DNA from: Modestobacter caceresii
Lineage (GTDB): Bacteria > Actinomycetota > Actinomycetes > Mycobacteriales > Geodermatophilaceae
NCBI RefSeq assembly: GCF_000761485.1
Contig: NZ_JPMX01000077.1
Location: 64,752-116,043 of the forward strand
DNA length: 51,292 nucleotides
Direction of reading: 5' to 3'
This document shows positions 22,966-30,534 of this stretch, piece by piece (position 1 is the stretch's first letter; every line of letters begins with the position of its first letter). The notes beneath the pieces were generated by a model that ran no database searches, had not been told where the DNA came from, and saw only the letters and a list, made by a program, of their open reading frames with translations. Position numbers and translations under genes: made by a program.

Positions 22966-23429
22966 GCGCGCGCCCACCCGTGCTGGTGGTCGCGACGGTC
23001 GGTTCAGGGCTGGTCGCCGGCGCCTTCGCCGTCTTCAGCCTGATGGTGGTGCCGGCCCTGACCGCCCTGCCCGGCGCCGCCGGTGCGACGGCGATGCAGT
23101 CGGTCAACCGCACGGCGGTCCGCCCGGGCTTCATGACGCTGCTGTTCGGCATCGCGCTGGTCTGCCTGGTGCTGGGCGGGGCCGAGCTGGCCGGGTCGCG
23201 CCGGCCGGCCGTGCTGACCGGCGTCGCGCTGTACCTGTTCGGGGTCGTCGGGGTCACCGTGCTGGCTAACGTCCCGCTCAACGACGCGTTGGCCCGGCTG
23301 GACGCCGCGGCGCCGGGTGCCGCGGAGGCGTGGCGGGAGAACGCCGGCCGCTGGACCCGGTGGAACACCGTGCGCTCGCTCGCCGCGACGGGCGCGGCGA
23401 CCGCCTTCCTGCTCGGGTCGGCCGACTGA
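22962..23429 (+). CDS. DUF1772 integral membrane protein (anthrone oxygenase-like)
   Basis: A 155-aa membrane protein with four helices and the DUF1772 hallmarks: FSLMVVPALTALPGAAG, AMQSVNRTAVRPGFM, then ANVPLNDALA and the WTRWNTVRS near the end. Some family members are oxygenase-like enzymes for anthrones, but bacterial members are mostly uncharacterised. Its GTG overlaps the stop of the NmrA-like gene. A decayed partial copy of this gene lies at 29393-29596, on the far side of the inserted module. Confidence 0.88.
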   Translation: MSARPPVLVVATVGSGLVAGAFAVFSLMVVPALTALPGAAGATAMQSVNRTAVRPGFMTLLFGIALVCLVLGGAELAGSRRPAVLTGVALYLFGVVGVTVLANVPLNDALARLDAAAPGAAEAWRENAGRWTRWNTVRSLAATGAATAFLLGSAD

Positions 23430-23436
23430 CCGCCGG

Positions 23437-23577
23437 TCAGTCCAGGCGGAGCCGGAGCGGGAGCTCGAGGGTGCTCGGGGTGCTCTCCCAGCCGAGCGCG
23501 GGGGTCCAGCGCCAGCCGTCCATCGCCACCTCGGTGAGGCCGAAGCGCTCGGCGTACGCCACCGCCCAGGTGGCCTC
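23437..23577 (-). pseudogene. Truncated 3' remnant of the lysozyme-like gene at 29614
   Basis: These 141 bp on the minus strand reproduce the last codons and stop of the gene at 29614-30534 with a fixed offset of 6177 bp. Identity is about 94% over 23436-23577 and 29613-29754. The encoded tail reads [20 protein letters not shown] and then ELPLRLRLD. Homology ends abruptly at 23577, where the module with its direct-repeat box begins. There is no start or upstream part, so this is a remnant left by duplication or insertion. Confidence 0.88.
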
Positions 23578-23588
23578 ATGGGGCCCGC

Positions 23589-23605
23589 CTTCAGCAGTCC
23601 TTCAA
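23589..23605 (+). promoter_or_regulatory. Phased direct repeat CTTCAG-N5-CTTCAA before the pseudo-receiver gene
   Basis: CTTCAG at 23589 and CTTCAA at 23600 are 11 bp apart, the spacing of tandem OmpR/PhoB-type half-sites. GGCTGGACCG follows 12 bp later and directly abuts the GTG start at 23628. The same half-sites and the same GGCTGGACCG occur at 26523-26570 before the coiled-coil gene. Binding by the regulator at 25783 is inferred. Confidence 0.65.
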
Positions 23606-23627
23606 CCGCCGCTGGGAGGCTGGACCG

Positions 23628-24107
23628 GTGGCACCAGTGAGGGGCGGTCCCAGCGGCGTCGTCTGTGACGACCGCGTCGCCATGCAGACCGCCGTGGCAG
23701 CGCTGTTCGACCGGAGCGGTGTCCGCTTGCTGCAGGTCACGCCTTCGTTCGCGGACCTGATGGCGCTGCTGGTGGCCACCTCTCCCGACGTGGTGGTCCT
23801 GGCGCTGCCCACTCCTGGGGCGGACGGTGTGGCTGCGGTACGGCAGGTGCGGCTCGCCGCACCCCGGGCACAGCTGGTCGTACTGTCCTCGTTCACCGAG
23901 CTGGAGGATGCTGCACTGCACGCCGGCGCGCATGCCCTGGTGCGGGACGAGGACCTGCGGGACCTTCGAGCAGTCCTGCTCGGCATCGCCTCCAGTGAGG
24001 TGCCGCCGGGGGACGCCGTTCAGCCGATCCGCGAGGCACCGGTCGACTCCGCGCCTCGGTCGCTCGTCGCGACGGCCGGCAGAGTCAGCTCGAACCCGGC
24101 GTCGTAG
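23628..24107 (+). CDS. Stand-alone pseudo-receiver domain protein (no phospho-acceptor Asp)
   Basis: A 159-aa protein with the fold pattern of a response-regulator receiver: GVVCDDRVAMQTAV for strand 1 and the acidic pair, VVVLALPTPGADG for strand 3, LVVLSSFTE for strand 4 and HAGAHALVRDEDLRDL for strand 5. The phosphorylated Asp of strand 3 is Ala59, and the conserved Lys of strand 5 is Arg, so normal phosphorylation is impossible. There is no DNA-binding domain. The C-terminal ~40 residues are unstructured-looking, and their codons overlap the 3' end of the convergent sensor kinase gene by 88 bp. GTG 23628 is preceded by GGGAGG. A role as a non-phosphorylated modulator of the neighbouring kinase/regulator is inference. 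Confidence 0.78.
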   Translation: MAPVRGGPSGVVCDDRVAMQTAVAALFDRSGVRLLQVTPSFADLMALLVATSPDVVVLALPTPGADGVAAVRQVRLAAPRAQLVVLSSFTELEDAALHAGAHALVRDEDLRDLRAVLLGIASSEVPPGDAVQPIREAPVDSAPRSLVATAGRVSSNPAS

Positions 24108-25786
24108 CGGAGGTCGCCGTTCATGGCCCGGGCGAGGCCGCGGGCCACGGGCAGACCGAGCCCTGAGCCGCCACGCCCGTCCAGGCTGACGAAGCGATCG
24201 AAGATCAGATCGCGGTCCTCGATCGGAACACCGCCGCCGTCGTCGGTCACCCGGATGACCAGCTGGGGTGGCTGGACGTCGAGGACGACGTGCAGCTCGG
24301 TGGAGGCGTGCCGGCGCCCGTTGTCCAGCAGGTTGCTCAGTACCTCCCGGACTGCGGCCCCGTCCAGCAGCCAGCGGCCCTGGGGAGTGCCGCGGAGAGT
24401 GAGCCGGACGTCGAGGTCCGGTGAGAGCAGGTCGACCCGGTCGACCTCGTCGGCGCACAACGCGACCAGGTCCACCGGCTCGGCAGCCAGTGGTCTGCCC
24501 TGGTCGAGACGGGCGATCTGCAGAAGTGAGCTCACCAGCCGCCCGGCGCGCGACGTCTCCCGCACCATGGTCGCCAGCAGACGGTGCCGGTCCTCCTCCG
24601 AAGGGCTTCGCAGCAGCGTCTCCGCACACGCCCGGATCCCGGTGACCGGCGTACGCAACTGGTGGGCTGCGTCTGCCAGGAACCGACGGGTCGCCTCCTC
24701 GGACGTCTGGGCCTCGTCCAGCGCGTCCTGCAGAGCAACGAGCGTCCTGTCCAAGGCGGTGGTCATCGTCCGCTGCGCAGTCAGGTCGTGGGCGATGCCG
24801 GAGAGCGCGACGACGCGGCCATCGGAGTTGCGCACCGGAGAGATCGCCACCGAGACCTCCACCGTGTCCCCGCCCCGGGTGAACCGCACGGTCTCGTGGC
24901 CGCTGACCCGCTCACCGGCGGCGGCCCGCCGCCGCAGCTCGTCGGTCTCCGACAGGCGGTCAACGGGCACGATCAACGAACTCTGCTGCCCGAGCGCGTC
25001 CCCGGCGCGGTACCCGTACAGCCGTTCCGCGCCTTGGTTCCAGGAGAGGATGACCCCGTCGAGACTCTCGGTGACGATGGCGTCCGCCGACCCCTCGACG
25101 ACAGCCGCGAGCAGCGCGGAGTTCTGCTGAGCGGCCGTTGCCTCCGCCAGCGCTGCCTCGAGCGCGTCCAACATGGCGTCGTAGGCCGTGGCCATCCGCC
25201 CGAGCTCGGTGGCCGGACGGTCCGGACGCAGTCGTTCCGCCATCCCGCCCTCAGCTGTGCGGGTGGCGGCTGCGGTGACCTGCCGGACCGGACGCAGGGC
25301 GACTCGGGACACCTGGCCCAGCAGGAGCGCGGCCAGGGCGACCGCCACCGCGGAGCCTGCCACCTCCAGCAGGACCAGCCTGCGGAGGGCCTCGGTGACC
25401 CCCGAGGTCCGGGCGAACACCTCGACCTGGCCACCGTCGGGGAGCACCACGACGCGGGAGATCGCGGTGCCGGCGTCGGTGGCGAGCGGCAAGTTGCCGT
25501 TCAGCTGCGGGGAGGGCGGTTCGGCACGTCGGACGGTGCCGTCGGGACTGCGGACGACGGCCCGCAGACCGAGCTCCTGCAACCGTCCGGCCAGGGCATC
25601 GGGGGGCACGTCGTCCGCTTGGGCCCGGGCGATCGCCGCACGGTCGGCCAGCAGGTCCTGCAACGACTGCTCGAGACCTGACCGGAGCGCGACGTACAGG
25701 AAGACGTCGACCAGGAGCAGCACGACGACCACGACCGCCGTTCCCCATCCCACGATGCGGCGACCGAGGGCCGGGGTGGCCGTCAT
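24020..25786 (-). CDS. Membrane sensor histidine kinase (HAMP-PAS-HisKA-HATPase)
   Basis: A 588-aa kinase. TM1 (residues ~11-34) and TM2 (~136-157) enclose an extracytoplasmic sensor of about 100 residues. HAMP (~158-212) and a PAS domain (~224-340, with ADAIVTESLDGVILSWNQGA) follow. The phospho-accepting His375 is in LADAAHQLRTPVTG. The ATPase has the N box NLLDNGRRHA, G1 DDGGGVP and G2 GGSGLGLPVARG. The Gln after the His-box histidine, instead of Glu, is unusual but occurs in this type. ATG 25786 overlaps the stop of the regulator gene (ATGA), so both are translated from one mRNA. Confidence 0.94.
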   Translation of the reverse strand: MTATPALGRRIVGWGTAVVVVVLLLVDVFLYVALRSGLEQSLQDLLADRAAIARAQADDVPPDALAGRLQELGLRAVVRSPDGTVRRAEPPSPQLNGNLPLATDAGTAISRVVVLPDGGQVEVFARTSGVTEALRRLVLLEVAGSAVAVALAALLLGQVSRVALRPVRQVTAAATRTAEGGMAERLRPDRPATELGRMATAYDAMLDALEAALAEATAAQQNSALLAAVVEGSADAIVTESLDGVILSWNQGAERLYGYRAGDALGQQSSLIVPVDRLSETDELRRRAAAGERVSGHETVRFTRGGDTVEVSVAISPVRNSDGRVVALSGIAHDLTAQRTMTTALDRTLVALQDALDEAQTSEEATRRFLADAAHQLRTPVTGIRACAETLLRSPSEEDRHRLLATMVRETSRAGRLVSSLLQIARLDQGRPLAAEPVDLVALCADEVDRVDLLSPDLDVRLTLRGTPQGRWLLDGAAVREVLSNLLDNGRRHASTELHVVLDVQPPQLVIRVTDDGGGVPIEDRDLIFDRFVSLDGRGGSGLGLPVARGLARAMNGDLRYDAGFELTLPAVATSDRGAESTGASRIG

Positions 25787-26460
25787 GCCCGGAGCACGTA
25801 GCCGGCGCCACGGACGGTGTGCACCAGGCGCGGCCCCGCGGCCTCGAGCTTGCGGCGGAGCGCGCTCATGTGGACCTCGACCAGGTTCGTGTCGTAGGCG
25901 TCGAAGCCCCACACCTGGGTGAGCAGCTGGGTCTTGGACAGCACCCTGCCGACCTGCTGGACCAGCATGACCAGCAGGTCGTACTCGGTGCGGGTCAGCT
26001 CGAGCGGGACGCCGGCGCGCACGACGATGCGAGCCGCGTCGTCGACGAGCAAGTCGCCGACCTGCCAGGAGGCGGAGGCCAGTCGGCCGGACCGGCGCAG
26101 CAGCGCCTGTACCCGGGCCAGCAGCTCGGCCATCGAGAAGGGCTTGGCCAGGTAGTCGTCAGCGCCGGCCTGGAACCCGGCCAGCCGGTCGTCCACGGAA
26201 TCCGCCGCAGTGAGAAACAGGATGGGGAGGCTGCTGGCGCGCCGGATCAGACGGCCCATGGCGTACCCGTCGGGGCCGACCGGGAGCCGCACGTCCAAGA
26301 CGGCGAGGTCCGGCCGGAAGTCCGCCACCACCTGCTGCAAGCCGGTCCCGTCCGGCTCCGCCCTCACCTCGTAGCCCTCCCCGCGAAGGGCGACCTCCAG
26401 CGCCGAGCGGATCACGGCGTCGTCCTCGACGACCAGCACCCGCGGCCTGTTCGCGGCCAC
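25783..26460 (-). CDS. OmpR/PhoB-family response regulator
   Basis: A 225-aa regulator. The receiver has the acidic pair VEDD (residues 11-14), phospho-acceptor Asp56 in LAVLDVRLP, Thr in LFLTAADS and Lys in YLAKPFS. The C-terminal winged helix includes LTRTEYDLLVMLVQQVGRVL, and the recognition region NLVEVHMSALRRKL, ending VRGAGYVLRA. It pairs with the kinase encoded immediately downstream with a 4-nt overlap. The GTG at 26460 is 40 bp from a TAAAGT -10-like hexamer on the minus strand, and the phased repeats at 26523-26550 lie just upstream of that. Autoregulation is therefore likely. Confidence 0.94.
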   Translation of the reverse strand: MAANRPRVLVVEDDAVIRSALEVALRGEGYEVRAEPDGTGLQQVVADFRPDLAVLDVRLPVGPDGYAMGRLIRRASSLPILFLTAADSVDDRLAGFQAGADDYLAKPFSMAELLARVQALLRRSGRLASASWQVGDLLVDDAARIVVRAGVPLELTRTEYDLLVMLVQQVGRVLSKTQLLTQVWGFDAYDTNLVEVHMSALRRKLEAAGPRLVHTVRGAGYVLRA

Positions 26461-26500
26461 GTCTCCCCCGTTTCAAGCCCCCCCGACAGCTGGCGTCGAA

Positions 26501-26506
26501 ACTTTA
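26501..26506 (-). promoter_or_regulatory. -10 element (TAAAGT) for the regulator/kinase operon
   Basis: Read on the minus strand, TAAAGT matches the actinobacterial TANNNT -10 consensus. It lies about 16 bp downstream of the nearest CTGAAG half-site, so the -35 position falls on the direct-repeat box, as in activator-dependent OmpR-type promoters. Confidence 0.5.
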
Positions 26507-26522
26507 GCCGCACAGGCGGTTC

Positions 26523-26550
26523 TTCAGGAGAGCTTCAGAAGTGCTTCAAC
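26523..26550. promoter_or_regulatory. Three phased direct repeats (CTTCAG, CTTCAG, CTTCAA) in the regulator/coiled-coil intergenic region
   Basis: Half-sites start at 26523, 26534 and 26545, exactly 11 bp apart, that is one helical turn. This is the geometry of OmpR/PhoB-family regulator binding. The box is shared by two divergent transcription units: the regulator/kinase operon on the left and the coiled-coil gene on the right. The last two half-sites plus GGCTGGACCG at 26561-26570 recur in front of the pseudo-receiver gene at 23589-23627. Confidence 0.7.
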
Positions 26551-26653
26551 CCATCCACAGGCTGGACCGTGAGTGTCTTCCCCAGGAAGTTCGGCAGCGG
26601 AAGTCATCCGCGCCCGCCGGACGAACACGCCGACGCCACACCGGGAGAAGCAC

Positions 26654-28978
26654 GTGACCGCACCGAAGTACATCAAGCGCAGCGCCGCCGGCGCTGTCAT
26701 GATCCCCGCGCTCCTCGCGGGCATGGTCGCCTTCGGCGGGCCGGCTGCCGCCGCTCCCGCCGCGTCCGCCGCATCCGCCGGAATCTGCAACGGCGTGACC
26801 AACCAGATGGCGCACCGCGGCACGGTGCAGGAGAACCTGCTGAGGGCAGCGGCCAAGAAGAACGCCGAGCTGATCACCAAGCTGCAGGCCGAGCGTGCGG
26901 CCCTCCAGGGCAGTGCGGCCACCCTCACCAAGCAGATCGCCGACGGCCGGGCGGCGATTGCGGCGCTCGAGGCGCAGGACAAGCAGCTGGACACCGACAT
27001 CACGGCCGCCACCACCGAGCTCGCCGGCCTCGAGGCCAAGCGGACCGCCGCGCTTACGGCCGCCGCGGACGCCACGAAGGCGCTCGCCGACCTGACGGAG
27101 CAGCGGGACACCGTGGAAGCGCAGCTCCAGCCGCTGCAGACCCAGCTGGCCGCGGCCCAGGCCGTGTCGGCCGCGCTGACCGAGCAGGCCGAGGCCGTGG
27201 AGGCCGACCGCGCCGCCAAGCAGCTGCAGGTCGACGTCGCGAACCAGCAGCTGGCCACGCTCGAGGCCGCCGCCACCAAGGCTGCCGACGACCTGGCCGG
27301 GACGAAGGAGCTGATCGCCGCCGGCGATGCGCAGCTGGCGACGCTGACCGCAACGGCGGAGCAGGCCGAGGCTGCCGCGGCGACGGCGGCTGAGGTGGTC
27401 ACCGAAGCCGAGGCCGAACTGCAGCGGCTGGTGGCGAGCGGCACCGCCGCGCAGGCCGAGCTGGACGCGCAGCAGGTGAAGATCACCGCGGCCAAGGCCA
27501 CCCTGAGCACGCTGGAGGGCGATGCCGAGAAGGCCGCCGCCGCCGTCACCGCGAAGCAGGCGGGAATCACCAAGGCGCAGGGCGAGCTGAGCACGCTGCA
27601 GGCCAACGCGAATACCGCCGCGGATGCACTCACGGCGAAGACCGCCGAGATCACCAAGGCGCAGAGCGAGCTGACCACCCTGCAGGCCGACGCCAAGAAG
27701 GCCGCGGACGCCGTCGCCGCCAACACCGCGAAGACCGCAGCGGTCAACGCGGAGGTCACCGCGCTGGAGAAGCAGATCGCCGACAAGAACGCGGCGATCA
27801 CCGCCAAGAAGGCCGAGCAGAAGAAGGCCGAGGACGAGCTGGCCGCGCTCCAGGCGCGCAAGACCTTCCTGGATGGCGAGATCACCCGGCTCAAGGCGAT
27901 CAACGGCGGCAGCAAGGGGGAGAGGGAGGCGCGGGCGGCGCAGATTGCCGCGTACGAGGCCGAGCTGAACACGGTGAACACGCAGATCACCGACAAGACC
28001 ACGCAGATCTCCGGGCTGTCCGGCGACCTGAAGACGCTGCAGGCGCAGGTCGACAGCTTGAACGGCCAGCTGGCGACCAAGAAGGCGGAGAGCGCTGCGC
28101 TGCAGGTGCAGGCCGCTCCGCTGCAGGCGACGCTGACCGCCGCCAACGACGCGGTGACCGCCAAGCAGGGGCAGGTGGCCACCCTGCAGGGTCAGCTCCC
28201 CGCGCTGCAGGCCGCGGTGGACCAGGCGAACGCGGCAGTCACAGCCAAGCAGGCCGAGCTGGACACCCTCCAGGGTCAGCTCCCAGGCCTGCAGGCCACG
28301 GCGGCCGAGGCCGCTGACGCGGTGGCGGCGCAGCAGCAGACGATCAGGGACCTGGAGGCGGCCCTGCCGGGGCTGACCGACGGCGTGGCCGCGGCCCAGC
28401 AGCAGATCGCCGACCAGAAGACCGTGCTCGAGGAACTCCGCGGCACGCTGGCGGAGGCCAACAAGGCCCTCGCCGTCGCCAACCAGGCGGTGCTGGACAA
28501 GGCGACCCAGGTGGCCGACCTGCGCAGCCAGCTGCCGGCGCTGCAGAAGGCGCTGGACGATGCGAAGGCCGCGGTGACCGCTCAGCAGGGCGAGGTCACC
28601 AAGCTCACCGGCGACCTGGACGCGGTGGTCAGCAAGCTGACCGGGATCAACACCCAGATCACCGCCAAGGAGGCCGAGATCCTGTCGCTGCAGAGCCGGG
28701 TCGCTCCGCTGCTGACCCAGCTGGACAAGCTGAGCGGTGAGGTCAGCGCCACCGAAGCCCAGCTCAAGGCCCTGCAGGCGCAGGTGATCACGCTGGACGG
28801 GCAGGTCACCGCCGCGCAGAAGGTGCTCCGCGACCTCCAGGCGCAGAAGAAGCAGAACAAGGAAGCGATCGCCGCGCAGGTCGTCACCGTCGCCGCGCTG
28901 GAGGACAAGCTCGGCGCCGTCCAGAACCAGATCAAGGCCATCGACGGCACGATCGCCCTCGGCGGTTGCGTCGCCTGA
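26654..28978 (+). CDS. Secreted alanine/glutamine-rich coiled-coil protein, 774 aa
   Basis: GTG 26654 with GGGAGA upstream gives a 774-aa product with a classical signal peptide (positively charged KYIKR, hydrophobic core AVMIPALLAGMVAFGG, Ala-rich cleavage region to about residue 42). Almost all the rest is heptad-like Ala/Leu/Gln/Lys/Asp/Glu-rich coiled coil. It includes diverged repeats such as AVTAKQAGITKAQGELSTLQ and ALTAKTAEITKAQSELTTLQ, and repeated LQGQLPALQ-type segments. There is no tryptophan. The only two cysteines are Cys45, just after the signal peptide, and Cys772 in the C-terminal GGCVA. No anchor, LPXTG or enzymatic domain is seen. I do not recognise a characterised homologue. 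A long antisense ORF is a composition artefact. Confidence 0.88.
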   Translation: MTAPKYIKRSAAGAVMIPALLAGMVAFGGPAAAAPAASAASAGICNGVTNQMAHRGTVQENLLRAAAKKNAELITKLQAERAALQGSAATLTKQIADGRAAIAALEAQDKQLDTDITAATTELAGLEAKRTAALTAAADATKALADLTEQRDTVEAQLQPLQTQLAAAQAVSAALTEQAEAVEADRAAKQLQVDVANQQLATLEAAATKAADDLAGTKELIAAGDAQLATLTATAEQAEAAAATAAEVVTEAEAELQRLVASGTAAQAELDAQQVKITAAKATLSTLEGDAEKAAAAVTAKQAGITKAQGELSTLQANANTAADALTAKTAEITKAQSELTTLQADAKKAADAVAANTAKTAAVNAEVTALEKQIADKNAAITAKKAEQKKAEDELAALQARKTFLDGEITRLKAINGGSKGEREARAAQIAAYEAELNTVNTQITDKTTQISGLSGDLKTLQAQVDSLNGQLATKKAESAALQVQAAPLQATLTAANDAVTAKQGQVATLQGQLPALQAAVDQANAAVTAKQAELDTLQGQLPGLQATAAEAADAVAAQQQTIRDLEAALPGLTDGVAAAQQQIADQKTVLEELRGTLAEANKALAVANQAVLDKATQVADLRSQLPALQKALDDAKAAVTAQQGEVTKLTGDLDAVVSKLTGINTQITAKEAEILSLQSRVAPLLTQLDKLSGEVSATEAQLKALQAQVITLDGQVTAAQKVLRDLQAQKKQNKEAIAAQVVTVAALEDKLGAVQNQIKAIDGTIALGGCVA

Positions 28979-28990
28979 TCCAGCCGGACG

Positions 28991-29025
28991 GGTGCGGGGC
29001 GGAGCCGGCGGCTCCGCCCCGCACC
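28991..29025 (+). terminator. Strong terminator after the coiled-coil gene
   Basis: A perfect 15-bp stem (28991-29005, GGTGCGGGGCGGAGC, with 29011-29025) and a 5-nt loop begin 13 bp after the stop codon. Confidence 0.88.
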
Positions 29026-29392
29026 TGTCTGTGCGTCTCCGCCCACGCGAGAGCCGCGGCGGTGCCGGAGCTCCGCCGACCAACCGGAGGGTGAGCGGCG
29101 AATCCGCGGCCCGCCGAGCCGCCGTCCACCGCCTGCTGGCCCGGACCACCTCGGTCCACTGCAGCCGCTCGGCCTGCGCCACCGTCCACCTGGCCCCCGG
29201 CAACCCGGCCGAGGACCGCAATGACATCGGCGGGCCGGACGGTCGGCGCCGGCCTCCCGACGGACGACGTGGGCGACCGGGCCGCCCGGTCGTCGACCGG
29301 ACCGGTCGCCTGGGTCGGGTGGAAGGTGCACGACAGCTGCGCGAGAGCGTCCGGGATGGAGGCGCCGGACAGTGTTCGGGCCAGGGAGTCCC
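29026..29392. other. Gene-free right part of the inserted module
   Basis: No ORF here has recognisable protein features. Long frames on the minus strand are run-ons of the antisense frames of the coiled-coil gene. Fragments of coding-like sequence on the minus strand (for example around 29100-29230) could be further decayed genes, but I cannot assign them. Confidence 0.5.
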
Positions 29393-29596
29393 AGTCGGTC
29401 GACCGGACCGCGATCCGTCCGGGGCTCATGACGTTGCTCTTCGGCCTCGCGGTGCTCGGTCTGGTGCTGAGTGGCGCCGAGTCGGCCGGTCAGCGCCGGC
29501 CGGCCGTGCTCCCCGGTGCCGCCCTGGAGCGAGACCCGGTGGGACCGCGCGCTCGCCCGCTGCTGCGGGCGCGGCGACGGCCTTCGGGCTCGTAGC
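29393..29596 (+). pseudogene. Decayed DUF1772 gene fragment
   Basis: Bases 29393-29512 match 23099-23218 of the intact DUF1772 gene at roughly 80% identity. They encode QSVDRTAIRPGLMTLLFG and GQRRPAVL. After that about 140 bp are missing and the frame shifts; the last ~70 bp (CTGGAGCGAGACCCGGTGG onward) match the 3' end of the intact gene again. There is no start region. It directly faces the intact lysozyme-like gene, mirroring the arrangement on the left side of the module. Confidence 0.8.
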
Positions 29597-29613
29597 GGCG
29601 GATTGAGCTCGGG

Positions 29614-30534
29614 TCAGCCCAGTCGCAGCCGGAGCGGGAGCTCGAACGTGCTCGGGGTGCTCTCCCAGCCGACCGCGGGGGTCCAGCGCCAGCCGTCCAT
29701 CACCACCTCGGTGAGGCCGAAGCGCTCGGCGTGCGCCACCGCCCAGGTGGCCTCCGGCCAGCCGGCGCCGGCGATGGAGACGGTGCCGTCGGTCTCGACC
29801 GTGGGCGGGCCGGCCTCCCGCCGGGCGGCCTCGGTGACCACGGCCGTCCGGTCGGCCAGGGTGGCCGGACCGGCGCCCGGCGCCGCGCCGCAGGTCAGGG
29901 CCTCCGGGGAGGTGGCGAGCAGGGCACCGCTCAGCGCGCTCGCCATCGGTTCCCACTGCTGGTACAGCTCCGGGTAGCCGCTGCGCTGGACCGCCTGGGC
30001 CACCTCGGTGAGCCGTCCGGTCTCCCAGCCGGGCACCTCCACCAGGCCGTCGAAGAACTTGCCGGCCGAGTAGACCGGGTCCCGCACCTGCGCCTCGCTG
30101 CCCCAGCCCTGCGAGGGTCGCTGCTGGAACAGACCGAGGGAGTCGCGGTCGCCGTAGTCGAGGTTGCGCAGCCGGGACTCCTGCTGCGCGGTCGCCAGCG
30201 CGATGACGGTGGCCCGCGGCGGCAGGCCACGCGAGCGGGCGACCGCCGCGATCGTCGCCGCGTTGGCCGCCTGCTCGGCGGTGACGCTGACGTCCGAGCC
30301 GGGGACCGTGCACCCGGCGAGCACCGACGGCGTGCCCTCCTCCTCCCGCCAGAGCAGCGCGACGGCGGCGAGGAGGGCGGCGACGAGCACCAGCGGCCAC
30401 AGCGTCCGTGCGCGACTCGTCCGGCGGGCACGGCGCCGCGGGGCGGGTCGGGCCGGGGGACGGCGCGCCGGACGTGCCGCGGGGCGGGCGGCCCGCGGCG
30501 GGGGCCGTCGGCCCGCGACCGGGGGGCTCACCAT
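29614..30534 (-). CDS. Lysozyme/transglycosylase-like membrane-anchored protein
   Basis: A 306-aa protein with a basic, Pro/Arg-rich cytoplasmic tail (~45 residues), one transmembrane helix ([18 protein letters not shown]) and an exported domain. The segment [20 protein letters not shown], followed by [14 protein letters not shown], has the Glu and the NxxY/GLFQ pattern of soluble lytic transglycosylase-like folds. Relatives in databases are often misnamed heavy-metal transporters. A peptidoglycan-cleaving role is plausible but unproven. The C-terminal ~60 residues form a separate conserved tail, and a duplicate of it lies at 23437-23577. Confidence 0.82.

Follow-up and report, generated by a model that had tools for sequence, protein, structure and literature searches.

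Whether short phased repeats can be assigned to a regulator encoded among them is the question raised by a 51,292-nt stretch of Modestobacter caceresii DNA (the window). In the interval between dapC (named in Geodermatophilus chilensis and aligned to the window) and dapD, this stretch contains a module of four genes, coding for a membrane histidine kinase, an OmpR/PhoB-type response regulator, a stand-alone pseudo-receiver and a coiled-coil protein, and CTTCAG/CTTCAA boxes precede the last two. An initial annotation of this DNA had proposed that the shared boxes define a mini-regulon within an inserted, self-contained signalling circuit. Our analysis suggests, with a probability of about 0.8, that the module is a two-component circuit, acquired and equipped with a private operator, through which the resident regulator would activate the coiled-coil and pseudo-receiver genes. 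Its features are the following:

23589-23594 (CTTCAG) and 23600-23605 (CTTCAA), plus strand: predicted operator of the pseudo-receiver gene, a tandem CTTCAG-N5-CTTCAA read from the sequence and conserved in G. chilensis and in two genomes outside the family, G144 and G581.
26522-26560, plus strand: array of four half-sites in 11-bp phase between the regulator and coiled-coil genes, from the sequence and the comparison with G. chilensis.
23628-24107, plus strand: stand-alone pseudo-receiver in which the phospho-accepting Asp is replaced by Ala and the Lys by Arg (Pfam Response_reg, alignment, AlphaFold, PDB fold matches).
24020-25786, minus strand: membrane histidine kinase, HAMP-PAS-HisKA-HATPase (Pfam, with residues to 24041), 75% identical in G. 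chilensis.
25783-26460, minus strand: OmpR/PhoB-type response regulator (Pfam PF00072 and PF00486, Trans_reg_C; ortholog group in the tree).
26654-28978, plus strand: coiled-coil protein of 774 amino acids, with only coiled-coil matches in Pfam and NCBIfam, and GGGAGAA before its GTG.

The regulator and kinase genes overlap by start and stop, and the 3' end of the pseudo-receiver gene overlaps the kinase gene convergently. In the array, CTTCAG (26522-26527), CTTCAG (26533-26538) and CTTCAA (26544-26549) follow each other at 11 bp on the plus strand, and the exact 11-bp period claimed for the boxes was confirmed at all coordinates. The initial list lacked a fourth half-site, the degenerate CCACAG (26555-26560, plus strand), which keeps the phase; the array of G. 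chilensis also has four half-sites, the final one being CTCCAG. In exact-match scans, CTTCA-N6-CTTCA was observed three times in the window against 0.02 expected, and in the whole genome (4,953,652 bases in 139 contigs) these three occurrences, all in the module, were the only ones, the mirrored control giving none. The genome search for further boxes that had been suggested as a check thus found exact matches nowhere outside the module in 4.95 Mb.

The distribution of the boxes follows that of the regulator. Among the 112 genomes of the family, a perfect box lies at most 260 bp upstream of all ten orthologs (60–100% identity), and none was found upstream of the 20 paralogs taken as the next best loci (47–54% identity), where the best sequence has at least four mismatches out of 12. 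The exact pattern has 37 matches in 29 of these genomes, 15 of them at ortholog loci, and the 22 off-locus matches compare with 29 for the mirrored control (counted by hand). A search in the order (match at E 1e-60 in 57 of 298 genomes, including the ten of the family) and in the class (21 of 394 genomes, overlapping with the order set) yielded 54 matches from outside the family, and loci were available for 41 of these; matches of at least 52% identity were counted as orthologs. These 41, the ten of the family and three further ones (L080-L082) provided 54 upstream regions of about 300 bp, a number exceeding that of independent regions because the set includes identical or nearly identical rows (G144/G581, G186/G244). 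CTTCAR-N5-CTTCAR is perfect in 24 regions, has one mismatch in 20 and more than one in 10; at most one mismatch was reached in 1 of 1,080 Markov shuffles, against 44 of the 54 real regions. In the phylogeny, a single branch splits the 54 orthologs from the 20 paralogs, and the window regulator belongs to a subclade of eight (support 100/97) that also includes sequences from G. chilensis and from other families.

The boxes are also found with the other genes of the module. A kinase match at E 1e-40 was obtained in two of the 112 family genomes, its own and that of G. chilensis, which carries the complete set of four genes with the same boxes. Outside the family, the regulator (79% identity), the kinase and the pseudo-receiver (45% over 114 amino acids) recur in G144 and G581, and the divergent gene encodes a different protein of 667 amino acids, which lacks Pfam matches and has, by eye, a signal-like start. 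This gene is preceded by four phased half-sites, with the hexamer following at 10 bp. In these genomes, another array of four sites lies ahead of a gene whose product combines a bacterial Ig domain with a signal-like start. The combination of kinase, regulator, boxed pseudo-receiver and boxed secreted-looking protein hence recurs in another genus and in another family, in agreement with the self-contained circuit first proposed. Separately, the loci L206 and L210 of G144 and G581, which are assigned to different families, are 99.97% identical over 5.9 kb and 99.75% identical over 4.4 kb, and therefore one of these genomes may be contaminated or misassigned. At eight family loci labelled g9, boxes face both directions, and the divergent products have signal-like starts in all six examined; two tested ones match DUF5666 below the cut-off, and above-cut-off matches to this family were obtained for the divergent products of two loci from outside the bacterial family. 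Since G144/G581 and the g9 loci carry different divergent products, the operator and a secreted-looking partner recur while the partner itself changes. The N-terminal part of the coiled-coil protein was found in four of the 112 family genomes, its own included. In G007 and G038, the coiled-coil gene lies beside a dapC stretch, and at the G007 locus (L163, 5745-10698) genes labelled by eye as NarL-like regulator and kinase-like follow it on the other strand. The coiled-coil protein may thus be repeatedly tied to two-component systems, as a NarL-like pair takes the place of the OmpR-type pair.

A common promoter layout is associated with these boxes. When single boxes with at most one mismatch were aligned (51 regions, overlapping boxes within one array being counted apart), a hexamer nAnnnT started 10 bp downstream in 30 of 42 divergent-facing cases and 10–11 bp downstream in 17 of 21 regulator-facing ones. 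When in-phase half-sites of up to two mismatches were added to the arrays of all 54 regions, 34 of 40 distinct divergent-facing arrays had nAnnnT starting exactly 10 bp past their last half-site, and 19 of 23 regulator-facing arrays had it starting 10–11 bp past theirs; every remaining offset occurred at most twice in the former and at most once in the latter. In PhoB-dependent promoters, tandem 11-bp repeats stand in place of the -35, about 10 bp ahead of the -10. The operator of PhoB-type activators differs from that of the window, the 11-bp tandem geometry being alike, and the array-to-(-10) spacing is, as far as sequence can tell, a PhoB-like activator layout in which the array would substitute for a -35. 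The predicted hexamers in the window are:

23616-23621, plus strand: predicted -10 of the pseudo-receiver gene, GAGGCT, 10 bp past the box and 6 bp before the GTG, with the same spacing in relatives.
26571-26576, plus strand: predicted -10 of the coiled-coil gene, GAGTGT, 10 bp past the fourth half-site; GAGCGT is equally spaced in G. chilensis.
26558-26563, plus strand: alternative -10 of the coiled-coil gene, CAGGCT, 8 bp past the third half-site.
26506-26501, minus strand: TAAAGT, predicted -10 of the operon of regulator and kinase; the closest half-site, which is inverted, is 15 bp away, and the hexamer is conserved in G. chilensis.

At the coiled-coil gene, four half-sites, 10 bp and a hexamer are found in both the window and G. 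chilensis (GAGTGT and GAGCGT, respectively); GAGTGT is preferred over CAGGCT because, once the fourth half-site is counted in the array, it lies at the usual distance of 10 bp. In front of the pseudo-receiver gene, the order of box, 10 bp, hexamer, 6 bp and start codon is kept in three lineages, with GAGGCT and GTG in the window, CACACT and GTG in G. chilensis, and CACTTT and ATG in G144 and the near-identical G581. As this -10 lies six bases before the start codon, a leaderless mRNA is predicted. Taken with the occurrence of boxes at the orthologs and at none of the 20 paralogs, the fixed distance to the -10 agrees with the proposed mini-regulon under the resident regulator. The sequence GGCTGGACCG, described as shared behind both sets of boxes, is indeed present (23618-23627 and 26560-26569), but no shared significance could be retained: it lies 12 bp past 23605 in one case and 10 bp past 26549 in the other, overlaps the -10 at one gene, falls mostly within the spacer of the other and is not conserved in G. 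chilensis. Its sharing is considered a coincidence because of this different place relative to the predicted -10s and this lack of conservation.

These elements can be combined into the following scheme. In response to a presumed signal, the membrane kinase would phosphorylate the OmpR-type regulator, which likely binds the head-to-tail CTTCAR half-sites spaced by one helical turn. As a putative PhoB-like activator of promoters without a recognizable -35, the regulator would bring RNA polymerase to the -10 starting 10 bp downstream; activation is likely because of the array-to-(-10) spacing. It would switch on the coiled-coil protein, whose secretion is predicted only from its signal-peptide-like start (by eye), and the stand-alone pseudo-receiver, which would be translated from the leaderless mRNA. 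The regulator would probably also drive the operon that encodes it, using the same array in the opposite direction. In turn, the pseudo-receiver could feed back on the circuit, most likely by binding the kinase or by pairing with the regulator, although this feedback is our guess.

The nearest characterized system that we found is CopRS of Corynebacterium glutamicum, which is not an ortholog. CopR is an OmpR-type regulator that binds the direct repeat TGAAGATTT-N2-TGAAGATTT, a site described as the sole one in the C. glutamicum genome and located between copR and a divergent secreted-protein gene (PMC3140484). On the other strand, this repeat reads CTTCA-N6-CTTCA, the same as in the window boxes, and the placement is also alike, with a site between a regulator and a divergent gene, secretion in the window being predicted from the start only. 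In contrast, the CopRS regulon holds copper genes, and the accessible text of that study mentions no pseudo-receiver for CopRS (PMC3140484); in the window, no copper families were found among the Pfam and NCBIfam matches of the module proteins, sub-cut-off regulator and kinase models aside. Orthology to CopR was rejected, since a regulator encoded beside an exact CopR site is only 41.5% identical to that of the window and has a different recognition helix, RIVDVHIGNLRRKLG. Among plasmids, CopR-like relatives reached at most 47.8% identity among the 40 records listed out of 66. The window regulator, which is 88.8% identical in G. chilensis, has the receiver and winged-helix Trans_reg_C domains (Pfam) that define the OmpR/PhoB family, and it scores below the NCBIfam cut-off in all of the 25 families listed out of 87, which include CopR/CzcR and CseB, with MtrA as the best among them (188.8 vs 300), PhoB at 174.8 bits (cut-off 296.2) and PmrA at 149.7 bits (cut-off 330). 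The PmrA/BasR box, bound by a regulator of the same OmpR/PhoB type, is CTTAAG-N5-NTTAAT, with the same 6-5-6 head-to-tail arrangement (PMC3973317), but its half-site differs from CTTCAR. MprAB and CutRS are actinobacterial two-component systems tied to envelope or secretion stress (PMC12113857, PMC12802291), and MprA and CutR were discarded as candidates because their published motifs, TKTTAAGAAM and TAWATAAA, differ from the window box. Literature on a CTTCAR operator of these orthologs was not found among the matches listed, in a search covering mostly freely available papers.

Several observations weigh against this reading. The branch separating orthologs from paralogs has a support of 94/79, slightly below the mark of the tool. 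Ten of the 54 ortholog regions lack a box at up to one mismatch, among them L080, L167 and L168, all three of which belong to the window regulator's subclade of eight and contain no recognizable box. The rule extending the arrays by degenerate half-sites (up to two mismatches) was set once the data had been seen. The regulator's own promoter departs from the layout, having a 15-bp spacing and inverted half-sites. G007 and G038 carry the coiled-coil gene without the system or a box at up to one mismatch, but in G038 a repeat with two mismatches precedes this gene by about 100 bp. Divergence of the pseudo-receiver is rapid and exceeds that of its neighbours (53.5% identity to G. chilensis, compared with 88.8% for the regulator; nonsynonymous and synonymous distances, dN and dS, of 0.41 and 0.84, dN/dS about 0.49). 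Finally, in genome G033, an OmpR-type regulator of another subfamily (L010, 571-1299, with the helix NIVEVYVGFLRRKVD) adjoins CTTCAG-N5-CTTCAG with TACCGT 10 bp on.

A different interpretation concerns the promoter of the regulator-kinase operon. The TAAAGT proposed as its -10 on the other strand stands as a hexamer, being kept in G. chilensis, but not at the distance claimed for it, which at 15 bp is unlike the layout of the other two promoters. Lying 15 bp from an inverted half-site, it places the regulator promoter outside the common rule. The regulator could therefore repress its own operon, blocking the regulator-kinase promoter from the array while activating the coiled-coil gene; the inverted half-sites, the 15 bp in place of 10 and a corresponding distance of about 29 bp in G144 (by eye) would fit such negative autoregulation. 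We nevertheless consider it somewhat unlikely, because the activator spacing is present in the 19 of 23 regulator-facing arrays mentioned above and because CopR is reported to activate both divergent sides from its one site in C. glutamicum (PMC3140484). Activation of the operon through the same array read backwards is plausible.

The pseudo-receiver matches PF00072 (E 3.1e-8), and no output domain was found with Pfam. Its AlphaFold model, built from a five-row alignment in which two rows are ordinary regulators, displays the elements of the receiver fold over residues 9-123, with 96 of 159 residues at a predicted local distance difference test score (pLDDT) of at least 90, and Spo0F (E 2.3e-7) and NarL are among its first matches in a Foldseek search against the PDB. 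The phospho-acceptor Asp is replaced by Ala, Ala and Thr and the catalytic Lys by Arg, Gly and Ser in the window, G. chilensis and G144, respectively, so that the absence of both residues is conserved across the three lineages; all three share D15 of the acidic pocket as well as the stretches LP.PG and LS.F. It could be argued that this protein is a functionless, decaying remnant that merely retained its promoter, given its fast evolution, the lack of a detected output domain and its presence at the window, G. chilensis and G144/G581 loci only. We find this unlikely, as the frame is open, the receiver core and the pattern of replaced Asp are maintained, and the promoter spacing is identical in the three lineages. 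Among known systems, CmrRST also encodes a receiver without catalytic residues with a complete two-component pair, and it is the example given for proposed pseudo-receiver modes of interaction with a partner kinase or regulator (PMC12632262). In contrast to CmrT, termed an OmpR-family regulator (PMC12548384), the pseudo-receiver of the window stands alone and has the operator in its own promoter.

The boxes could also be used by a different response regulator of the cell. The G033 regulator of another subfamily points in this direction, as do three genomes without a close ortholog, G107 (L030), G108 (L031) and G109 (L078), in which boxes have a -10 hexamer at 10 bp; the operator may be shared there by another regulator. 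Such a hexamer was present in 5 of 21 off-locus matches examined, and downstream of the G109 box lies a gene (L078, 5576-6361) for an acidic repeat protein whose start is signal-like. As an explanation of the window, this seems improbable, because exact boxes in this genome are confined to the module and because boxes track the regulator group across families. That the repeats are due to chance or lack a regulatory role, as the shortness of the arrays and the background level of 22 of the 37 family matches might suggest, is hardly credible given the three observed occurrences against 0.02 expected, the single success in 1,080 shuffles and the conservation of the boxes across families though their flanks diverge.

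The acquisition of the circuit can be read from its surroundings:

23578-29532, strand not assigned: acquired module, with approximate ends, from the comparison of same-genus loci.
23354-23577 and 29533-29754, strand not assigned: direct duplication of about 224 bp flanking the module, 88% alike, from sequence comparison.
29392-29526, strand not assigned: divergent remnant, at the insert's right end, of a gene of the anthrone-oxygenase family (PF08592), 80% identical to the intact copy at 23097-23231.

A dapD match was obtained in 20 further genomes of the genus; six loci from these were examined, and the module is absent from all six, its flanks being contiguous in five and separated by about 1.3 kb of other DNA in G105. 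Family-wide searches found neither the kinase nor the coiled-coil gene in other genomes of the genus. The description of the module as inserted is therefore right for this genus, and the doubt raised by the G. chilensis module in the same dapC-dapD interval was dropped given the empty same-genus sites. G. chilensis itself is no recent source, since positions 23647-29068 of the window share only about 78% nucleotide identity with it. The left junction lies 11 bp before the pseudo-receiver box, so the insert just takes in that promoter. The remnant is 79–83% identical to five of six relatives; together with the duplication, it resembles the outcome of recombination with a donor having a related flank, and the module looks like it was integrated in this way.

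The operator and promoter rule obtained here (CTTCAR half-sites every 11 bp, N10, nAnnnT) concerns a group of regulators falling below every listed NCBIfam cut-off, and it can predict the targets of these regulators in Actinomycetes, several of which are secreted-looking proteins. The mechanisms switching pseudo-receivers on and off were still described as a mystery in a 2025 review (PMC12632262), and the module provides a small setting for asking what effect a stand-alone pseudo-receiver has on a kinase-regulator pair. We tentatively propose that this is a two-component system with hard-wired protein feedback, in which a leaderless dead receiver may tune the kinase or heterodimerize with the regulator, and which may move as a unit, swapping its secreted effector while keeping its operator code.

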